Assembly: GCF_017163755.1 (NCBI RefSeq)
Contig: NZ_JAFIWC010000003.1
Span: forward strand, 1 to 64,000
Direction of reading: 5' to 3'
Source of the DNA: Xanthomonas sp.
Lineage (GTDB): Bacteria; Pseudomonadota; Gammaproteobacteria; Xanthomonadales; Xanthomonadaceae
DNA length: 64,000 bases
In this document: positions 36,405 to 38,508 of the stretch, piece after piece
Numbering within the stretch: the stretch's first letter is position 1
Layout of the letters: every line of letters begins with the position of its first letter
The notes under the pieces: generated by a model
What the model was told of the DNA's origin: nothing
Seen by the model: the letters and a program-made list of their open reading frames with translations, nothing else
Databases searched by the model: none
Position numbers and translations under genes: made by a program

Positions 36405-36752
36405 ATGGACACCATCTTCGGCAAGATCATTCGCCGCGAAATTCCCGCCAGCATCGTCTACGAAGACGACGAGGTGCTCGGCTTCAAGGACATCGCGCCG
36501 CAGGCGCCGGTGCACGTGCTGTTCATTCCCAAGCAGGTGGAGATCGCCACGCTGGACGACGCGCGTCCCGAGCAGGCGGCGCTGATCGGCAAGCTGGCGC
36601 TGGCCGCGGCCGCGTATGCGCGCGAGCAGGGCCTAGCGCAGGACGGCTACCGGGTGGTGATGAACTGCCGCGAGCACGCCGGCCAGACCGTGTTCCATCT
36701 GCACCTGCACCTGCTCGCCGGTGCGCCGCTGGGACGCTTCGGCACGGCGTGA
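36405..36752 (+). CDS. hinT: HIT-family nucleotide-binding protein (HinT-like)
   Basis: A purine-nucleoside phosphoramidase of the HINT branch, 115 residues. The start DTIFGKIIRREIPASIVYEDD is typical, and the histidine triad is in TVFHLHLHLLAG. It is the last clear gene before the integron cassette region. Monocistronic or cotranscribed with recR (90-base gap). Confidence 0.94.
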   Translation: MDTIFGKIIRREIPASIVYEDDEVLGFKDIAPQAPVHVLFIPKQVEIATLDDARPEQAALIGKLALAAAAYAREQGLAQDGYRVVMNCREHAGQTVFHLHLHLLAGAPLGRFGTA

Positions 36753-37152
36753 TGCGGTGGCGGCCTTCCAGCGCGCTGAGCGGCTGGTGATGGCGTTGTC
36801 GGGACCAGGGACCAGGGACCCGAGTGGTCGAGGCGCGGCGAGGAAGCCAGCTGATGCATGGGTCCGCGTGTGTCGGTAGCCCTGGGCACCGCCGCGCCTT
36901 GATGGCGGACAGCACTAATGTCCTGCAGAACAAAGAGTTGGCACTGCCCGCGACATCCGCTCTTTGACTAGGGAATTGGTCCCGCCGACCTCCTGCTCTG
37001 AGAAAAGCCGCTTATAGGCTGCCGTTCTCCATCGGAGCGACATTGCCCGTCCAGGCTAGGGCTGTAGGTCCGCAGCGTTTGCCACGCGTTCGCGCATACC
37101 GGCAGTACGTCGCGGCAGCGCCGGTGGAGTTGTCATGAAAATTCTTGTTGGA
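36753..37152. other. 400-bp region between hinT and the integron cassette
   Basis: No gene recognised. It opens with a heptamer repeat (36801-36823), then has lower GC than neighbouring core DNA. It may be the decayed remainder of a further cassette, since it adjoins an attC site, but no additional attC was found in it. Confidence 0.5.
36801..36823. repeat. GGGACCA heptamer tandem repeat
   Basis: Three head-to-tail heptamers (GGGACCA, GGGACCA, GGGACCC) 48 bases after the hinT stop. Related arrays are at 47156-47192 and 54860-54881. Confidence 0.8.
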
Positions 37153-37210
37153 GGCTAACACCTGAATTAACCCGTGCCGCGAGCCGATCGGGTTGAATGG
37201 ATTGTTAGGC
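37153..37210 (-). other. Integron attC site (cassette recombination site), 58 bp
   Basis: On the minus strand it begins GCCTAACAATCCATTCAACC and ends GGGTTAATTCAGGTGTTAGC followed by C. These ends pair as in attC: RYYYAAC / GTTRRRY core sites and the inner ATTCAA-type arms with the usual unpaired base. One core position departs from consensus (GTTAGCC). It begins 10 bases after the stop of the gene at 37220, exactly where a cassette's own attC should be. Confidence 0.85.
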
Positions 37211-37219
37211 TGCACGCTT

Positions 37220-37705
37220 TTACTCTGCTGAGTAGATGGTGGCTTGGCGCACCAAGAGCTGCCAAGTACCACTTGCATCCGTCCAGATCTCGGTTGTACG
37301 ACGCCGGACCTGCTTGTTGGCGAACTTGGCTTTCCCCACGGGAGTCAAAGTCTCTTCTCCCATGAGGAGGACCTCATGCTCACCGCGGAGTGCGGCATAC
37401 TCAATTGACCGATTGAGGGTTGTGTAGTCAATCAAGCCCGTGCGGAGATTCTTAAGGGCGTCTGCTTTCCTGGCGATCTTGTTGAATGGATTATTGACAA
37501 CCGCGTCATCCGCGAAAAGGCTTTCAAAAGCCACTGCGTCTTTCTTGAGAATCGCATTGTCAAAGCGGGTCGCGGCCTCGAGGGCAGCCGCTATCCGAGG
37601 CTGTTTCACGGATTCCTTCGCCTGCGGTGTCGTTGCGCGCCAACCTGCGATGGCCGGAGCCGTCACTACAGCGAGCGCTAAGAAGACCAAGCATCTACGC
37701 ATCAT
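37220..37705 (-). CDS. Integron cassette gene: secreted DUF4440/NTF2-like protein
   Basis: 161 residues. A signal peptide (MMRRCLVFLALAVVTAPAIAG) precedes an NTF2-like domain: AAALEAATRFDNAILKKDAVAFESLFADDAVVNNPFNKIARKADAL, TTLNRSIEYAALRGEHEVLLMGEE, RRTTEIWTDASGTWQLLVRQATIY. The ATG at 37705 follows AGGAGA by six bases. Codon use is clearly less GC-rich than in surrounding core genes. Flanked by attC at 37153-37210 and 37747-37862, it is a single mobile cassette. Function unknown. Confidence 0.88.
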   Translation of the reverse strand: MMRRCLVFLALAVVTAPAIAGWRATTPQAKESVKQPRIAAALEAATRFDNAILKKDAVAFESLFADDAVVNNPFNKIARKADALKNLRTGLIDYTTLNRSIEYAALRGEHEVLLMGEETLTPVGKAKFANKQVRRRTTEIWTDASGTWQLLVRQATIYSAE

Positions 37706-37746
37706 CTTGAATCTCCTGACAGGGTGGAGAGGACGTATTGTGGTCA

Positions 37747-37862
37747 GCCTGACGCCTGAATTAAGCCGGCCCACGCAGGGCGGCGACTGAGGGCGAATAT
37801 AGCCGAAGGCGTGCACCTAGGCGCGGCCCTGCCGTGGGTTCGGCTTGAATGAATTGTTAGGT
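37747..37862 (-). other. Integron attC site upstream of the cassette gene, 116 bp
   Basis: On the minus strand it starts ACCTAACAATTCATTCAAGC and ends CGGCTTAATTCAGGCGTCAG followed by GCT, with complementary inner arms and a long central part. This is the classical attC form with the same ATTCATTCAAG / CTTAATTCAG arms as known cassettes. The crossover triplet is GTC instead of GTT, which may block further recombination. It would have belonged to a preceding cassette now lost. Confidence 0.82.
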
Positions 37863-37931
37863 CTCACTCGCGAAGATCGGCAAACCGGTTATGCGCACAG
37901 CACTATCCGCCGTCAAGGCGCAACGCCGGAC

Positions 37932-37963
37932 AAAAAAAGCCGCTCGATGAGCGGCTTTTTTTG
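37932..37963. terminator. Bidirectional terminator after slp
   Basis: AAAAAAAGCCGCTC-GAT-GAGCGGCTTTTTTT. A and T runs on both sides of an 8-bp GC stem make it work on either strand; it closes the minus-strand slp transcript 18 bases after the stop. Confidence 0.92.
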
Positions 37964-37980: not shown

Positions 37981-38508
37981 TTACCACCAGCCGCGACGAT
38001 AGCCCCAGCGCGGGCCCCACGGATCCCACGGGCCCCAGGGGCCGTACGGGTAGGCGGGCACCACCTCGACCTGGCGCACCACCGGCCACAGGTAGACCAC
38101 GTCGGCGCTGATCTTCGGCAGGCGGTAGTCGTACTCGCCGATGCGGGTGTTCTCGTAGCCGGAGACGTGGCCGATGAAGGTCACCTCGCGGCCCGGCTCG
38201 AACACGGCCGGATCGTAGAAGCCGGCGCGGCACGCGATGAAGCGTCCGTCGCTGGCGTCGGCCGAGCTGCTGTCCGGACGGCCGCTGCCGTTCAACGGCC
38301 GCGCCAGCATCTGGAAGCAGGTCTCGCCCTGCGCCGGCTTGGTCTGGATGATCTTGCCGCCCCAGCGCACCGGCGAACCGACCTGCTGGCCGGCGACCGA
38401 GTCGCGCGGGGTGACGGTGGCGAACTGGCCCTGCAACGGCTTGGGTGCGGTCACGCAGGCGCCCAGGGCGAGGGCGGCCACCACGGGTAACAGCAGACGA
38501 ATCTTCAT
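37981..38508 (-). CDS. slp: Slp-family outer-membrane lipoprotein
   Basis: 175 residues. The signal peptide ends in a lipobox LGAC (acylated Cys at residue 18). The body matches Slp: VRWGGKIIQTKPAQGETCFQMLARPLNGSGRP, VTFIGHVSGYENTRIGEYDYRLPKISADVVYLWP. The C-terminus is an unusual Trp/Gly/Pro-rich tail (PYGPWGPWDPWGPRWGYRRGWW), not part of the core domain. It overlaps the tgpA stop by ATGA and is thus the last gene of the moxR operon. Confidence 0.9.
   Translation of the reverse strand: MKIRLLLPVVAALALGACVTAPKPLQGQFATVTPRDSVAGQQVGSPVRWGGKIIQTKPAQGETCFQMLARPLNGSGRPDSSSADASDGRFIACRAGFYDPAVFEPGREVTFIGHVSGYENTRIGEYDYRLPKISADVVYLWPVVRQVEVVPAYPYGPWGPWDPWGPRWGYRRGWW

Follow-up and report, generated by a model that had tools for sequence, protein, structure and literature searches.

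A CALIN-type segment between hinT and slp in a Xanthomonas genome

Why does a Xanthomonas genome carry what looks like an integron gene cassette between hinT and slp, and how might it have arrived there? An initial annotation, made from the sequence of a 64,000-nucleotide stretch ("the window"), had described two attC sites of 58 and 116 bp around a single gene for a signal-peptide-bearing NTF2-like protein, in the order expected for a cassette (the gene, then its own attC). To it, the segment looked like a lone, CALIN-type outpost (attC sites lacking an integrase) or else an off-target insertion that is now fixed; it saw no intI gene in the window, and suggested that an unusual crossover triplet might have frozen the upstream attC. 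The checks that it proposed were a search with attC covariance models, folding of the bottom strands, and a comparison of the hinT-slp interval across genomes. We report these checks here. The locus is laid out as follows:

36405..36752, + strand: hinT, encoding a HIT-family protein (PF01230, E = 3.4e-24; reading frame checked); left flank
36753..37152, no strand: about 400 bp between hinT and attC1, with no clear counterpart in the spacers of relatives
37153..37210, - strand (top strand): attC1, 58 bp, the site of the intact cassette; R' core GTTAGCC at 37159-37153
37159..37752, - strand: complete cassette unit, 594 bp from crossover to crossover, read from the attC core sites
37220..37705 (stop included), - strand: cassette gene, 161 amino acids, with a signal-like start and DUF4440 (NTF2/SnoaL-like)
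37747..37862, - strand: attC2, 116 bp, left by an upstream cassette that lacks its gene; the triplet at the crossover is GTC (top) or GAC (bottom)
37863..37921, no strand: decayed junction from attC2 to the slp terminator, with a weak gapped alignment to the spacer of genome G006
37931..37963, - strand: slp terminator hairpin, outside the insert; an inverted repeat with an equivalent hairpin in the spacers of relatives
37981..38508, - strand: slp, encoding an outer membrane lipoprotein of the Slp family (PF03843, E = 1.2e-43); right flank

Two attC sites and one complete cassette

We searched the window with two covariance models, R1 and R2 (R2 describes the full hairpin structure), which were built from 45 aligned attC sites of other genomes and include no sequence from the window. 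Both sites were matched: attC1 scored 59.5 bits with R1 (E = 6e-14) and 54.3 bits with R2, and attC2 scored 62.2 bits (E = 1e-14) and 64.1 bits. R1 gave just one other match in the window at E ≤ 10 (11.8 bits, E = 0.66), and R2 gave none across the window besides attC1 and attC2, which lie 536 bp apart. These scores rule out chance palindromes.

The recombinogenic (bottom) strand of both sites is the + strand, and at both sites it folds somewhat better than the top strand. For attC2, the energies are -29.6 vs. -25.6 kcal/mol. For attC1, they are -9.8 vs. -9.0 kcal/mol, which is a small margin (0.8 kcal/mol), and in the R2 alignment of attC1, several inner-stem pairs and one outer-stem pair are broken. 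Because the margin is small and the inner stem departs from the model, attC1 looks worn.

The unpaired extra G of an attC marks its bottom strand. Here, TTAA faces TTGAA, and the surplus G falls on the bottom strand. We first considered that the gene might be reversed relative to its attC, but we dropped this idea because of that G and because of the layout in genome G011, where the bottom strands of the array are on the + strand, to the left of intI (also on +), so that the cassettes run on the - strand, as they do here. The cassette polarity in the initial annotation is correct: the order on the - strand is attC2, the cassette start at 37752, the gene (37705-37220), and attC1, with 9 bases between the stop codon and attC1. 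(The crossover of an attC falls between the first and second bases of the R' core; PMC12901181.)

We confirmed the crossover triplet of attC2: it is GTC on the strand of the gene, with GAC in place of AAC on the bottom strand. Among 154 candidate attC sites (151 distinct) that we collected by motif from relatives, AAC appears in 138 and GAC in 3; this understates the variants, as the motif favours AAC and was picked with the window's sites already seen. (We scanned 18 loci, and 5 of them had no candidates.) With GAC, the bottom strand retains a G·T pair, and the outer stem is lost from the fold predicted for the top strand. Given the kept pair and the three similar sites, the proposal that GTC froze attC2 is unproven. 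Nor is it needed: the loss of the integrase suffices to immobilise attC2, since without an integrase nothing would move.

The cassette gene encodes a DUF4440 protein (PF14534, 44.7 bits, E = 2e-11) whose N-terminus is charged and then hydrophobic, which resembles a signal peptide by eye. It is probably a periplasmic or secreted NTF2-like protein. Its sole match in NCBIfam is TIGR02246, at 13.9 bits, which is under the cut-off of 33.95, and we found no related solved structure at E ≤ 0.1. A simple scan found no sigma-70 promoter for the gene. Because the gene lies downstream of the slp terminator and on the same strand, its expression would depend on transcripts that pass the terminator or on a promoter that belongs to the gene itself.

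Homologues of the cassette protein are encoded in Pinirhizobacter (70% identity), a gammaproteobacterial MAG (59%), Pseudoxanthomonas (63%), and a Pontibacter assembly (32%). All four of these loci are outside the genus, and the DNA fetched around them contains no convincing attC (the best match was 15.1 bits, E = 0.084). The Pseudoxanthomonas homologue (L061:8001-8467) matches in two frames near its end, as if it were frameshifted. At E ≤ 1e-15, we found the protein in 2 of the 299 relatives searched, including this genome itself; the other is G296 (66% identity). We did not find the gene in other genomes of the genus.

The insert and its edges

We compared the hinT-slp stretch with 41 genomes, including its own, and 39 of the 41 matched somewhere. 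The gap between hinT and slp, which we took between fixed anchor points and for which some ends had to be extrapolated, is about 64-115 bp in all 19 same-genus relatives, including the slp terminator. Between the same anchors, the gap in this genome is 1223 bp. (In G020, from another genus, it is 442 bp.) So, the insert between the convergent hinT and slp genes is seen in this genome only and is absent from 19 same-genus relatives, and the compact gap in those relatives rules out ordinary intergenic DNA. The initial annotation had named two outcomes that would refute it, sub-threshold scores of both sites with attC models and a segment that aligns as ordinary intergenic DNA in close relatives; with our models and these 19 genomes, we saw neither.

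Neither edge of the insert is an attC crossover that abuts recognisable host DNA, and the spacers are too diverged for the joins to be placed at the level of single bases. On the slp side, the alignment to the G006 spacer suggests that part of the junction (about 37903-37921) may still be the original slp-hinT spacer. If the original spacer does reach to about 37903, little would survive of the cassette to which attC2 belonged.

On the hinT side, the roughly 400 bp before attC1 has no match at E ≤ 1e-8 in the relatives and none among the plasmid matches listed. The single recurring piece among the matches listed is at about 36792-36845, which occurs twice in G017. For three open reading frames that overlap this region, there is no match in Pfam at E ≤ 0.1. 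Possibly, the region is a decayed cassette or debris from the insertion.

We also searched the segment for known RNA families, and none was above its gathering score. There were six sub-threshold matches at E ≤ 1; the best of these, Leu_leader at 37885-37962 (26 bits vs. 50), we take to be the slp terminator hairpin. Elsewhere in the window, 7922-8091 matches the sX4 small RNA family and overlaps a tRNA-Ser gene.

The integrase and attC sites in the rest of the genome and genus

We found no intI that reaches the family cut-off in this assembly, the window included, and none at E ≤ 1e-30. The best match to TIGR02249, on another contig, scores 74.2 bits vs. the cut-off of 265, and all 14 control genomes likewise yield matches below the cut-off. 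The segment is not a complete integron, which would have intI, attI, and Pc next to its cassettes, as there is no intI over the cut-off in the genome. Rather, it is a CALIN by definition: it has two attC sites, one complete cassette, and no integrase that we could find. Across the genus, intI matches at E ≤ 1e-30 occur in 9 of 20 genomes, and matches above the cut-off in 5 of the 20. In 8 of those 9 genomes, intI adjoins ilvD (within about 1.1 kb); in G009, it is about 6 kb away. Besides the initial annotation, it is this arrangement of ilvD and intI in the relatives on which the assignment to Xanthomonas rests.

The ilvD gene of this genome is at C64:50765-52531, and three attC matches lie at C64:48798-49923, so attC remnants persist at its own ilvD site. 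Overall, we counted 13 attC matches in the genome at E ≤ 0.1. Besides the three at ilvD and the two at hinT-slp, there are two each on contigs C2, C27, and C41, and one each on C74 and C43. Those on C2 at 46295, on C27 at 40799, and on C74 score above 55 bits, while those on C2 at 3759, on C41, and on C43 score below 40 bits. (The higher-scoring of these scattered sites are at C2:46295-46353, C27:40012-40858, and C74:121685-121743, in loci L097, L098, and L006.) The cassette is therefore "lone" within the window, as annotated, but not within the genome, which has attC sites on at least three other contigs besides the one with ilvD. We examined the sites on C74 and C2 for an empty site in relatives and found no interpretable one.

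At least 17 of 20 genomes from the genus have attC sites at E ≤ 1e-6, with at least 274 sites in total when up to 150 candidates are scored per genome. In at least 12 of the 20 (G000, which is this genome, and G003, G004, G006, G007, G008, G010, G011, G013, G015, G017, and G019, taken from the best matches), there are attC sites away from ilvD, meaning over 50 kb away or on a different contig. G000, G015, and G019 are counted by contig, and because their assemblies are incomplete, the distance to ilvD may be shorter in these three.

Two observations concern the neighbours of these other sites. One of this genome's attC sites lies beside an FBPase gene (L097:6852-8354). In G004, the matching gene has attC sites on that side too (G004:C1:21033-24047), so the CALIN site appears to occur in more than one species. 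Also, genes for SnoaL/NTF2-like proteins are found near the attC sites at ilvD (L005:8289-8639) and at the FBPase site (L097:8806-9207). Judging by these family assignments, the SnoaL/NTF2 fold recurs near the attC sites of this genome.

Where did the cassettes come from? The attC2 sequence shares 92% identity with a long attC of G007, 87% with one of G015, and, over part of its length, 81% with one of G004. Because attC2 matches the attC of three genomes from the genus at 81-92%, the genus's own cassettes are a likely source. In the best 20 of 65 matching plasmid records, sequence next to catB3/catB8, aadB, and aac(6')-IIa genes shows 79.5-82.6% identity to the attC1 stretch. These 20 matches touch attC1 only, and we rejected a plasmid source.

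How the segment may have arrived, and comparison to known systems

The account that we think quite probable is that of a small CALIN, now decayed, comprising an intact cassette and the attC of a second one, which was inserted at hinT-slp by an integrase that was later lost. An integrase linked to ilvD, or one supplied from outside, would once have acted in this lineage, and circular cassettes or a piece of an array would have been inserted at hinT-slp, at a site that is neither attI nor attC. Loss of the integrase would then have left the cassette fixed where it is, with decay at both ends of the insert afterwards. It is this sequence of insertion and loss that we infer; the attC sites, their polarity, the absence of the segment from the 19 relatives, the lack of an integrase match over the cut-off, and the remnants at ilvD were observed. 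Several results count against this account: neither edge of the insert joins recognisable host DNA at an attC crossover, the 400 bp beside attC1 is unexplained, the cassette gene is missing from our searches of other genomes of the genus, and a weak inverted repeat near the edges would allow for a different vehicle, although its right arm may overlap the original spacer.

The extra DNA beyond attC1 would fit another route, in which part of the ilvD array (two neighbouring cassettes and flank) was moved by some means other than the integrase, for example by transposition, within a non-autonomous element that ends in inverted repeats, or by illegitimate recombination. There is an inverted repeat near both edges of the insert (36894-36912 and 37903-37921; 19 nt, of which 17 match), and of 300 simulated regions of the same length (first-order Markov), 2 had a repeat of equal quality whose arms were separated by more than 200 bases. 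However, we chose this repeat post hoc. Its pattern is found at two places elsewhere in the genome, with 2 mismatches each, which is the same number as for a reversed control, and part of its right arm can be aligned to the normal G006 spacer. We did not see a target duplication by eye, and Pfam gave nothing at E ≤ 0.1 for five further open reading frames within or next to the insert, so there is no transposase domain among these five. Overall, we consider relocation without the integrase to be unlikely. The more specific idea that the 19-nt repeat marks the ends of a non-autonomous element, which carried both attC sites and the cassette out of an array, seems highly improbable; if it were true, there would be a second, integrase-independent vehicle for the spread of cassettes in the genus.

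Alternatively, hinT-slp might be an ancient site for arrays that was kept here alone and lost in all of the sampled relatives. CALIN positions can be common to different species (PMC12444791), and the counterparts in G004 of this genome's FBPase-side attC are on the same side. But the gap in the 19 same-genus genomes, with its terminator, is too short for an attC and a gene, and many independent clean losses would be required. We doubt this strongly.

Our preferred explanation is integrase-mediated insertion followed by loss of the integrase, and off-target (attG) insertion of a cassette is plausible, with junctions that have since decayed. The consensus for the crossover is G^WT. Loot et al. 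reportedly described attG-mediated insertion of cassettes into genomes (2024, Nat Microbiol). As with attG insertion, the cassettes here are at a chromosomal site that is neither attI nor attC; the joins at hinT-slp are too diverged to show a junction catalysed by an integrase. More broadly, this is cassette DNA outside the home array, in one genome only, with no integrase found, and private insertions of this kind would be a natural place to test the off-target insertion route if close strains with an empty site exist.

The segment also resembles the CALINs outside of ilvD that were described by Colombi et al. (2025, PMC12444791), which are found in about 50% of Xanthomonas genomes: it has at least two attC sites, no adjacent intI, and is away from ilvD. 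In many Xanthomonas genomes, the integrase has been inactivated (PMC12444791). As in the published CALINs, the cargo is of unknown role, and some of that cargo has signal peptides, which are present in 11.6% of cassette proteins (PMC12444791). The same paper sets the conserved positions of CALINs against attG insertion in E. coli, which was scattered in experiments. Among the positions it gives are lamG, secF/secD, recD, an oxidoreductase gene, and a plasmid, along with an unnamed outer membrane protein gene in X. oryzae and two unnamed positions in X. translucens. The position of this segment differs from the named ones, although the unnamed outer membrane protein gene might be slp, and hinT, slp, and lipoprotein do not occur in the main text of PMC12444791. 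Our literature searches returned nothing relevant that links hinT with CALIN and attC, or integron with NTF2 or SnoaL. We found no description of this position or of this cargo; the kind of element is already known and is common in the genus.

Finally, the chromosomal integron at ilvD in Xanthomonas was described by Gillings and colleagues (as given in PMC12444791). The segment at hinT-slp differs from it in its locus and in having no intI that we could find, but it has the same type of attC, and the ilvD integron is the likely pool from which its cassettes came.
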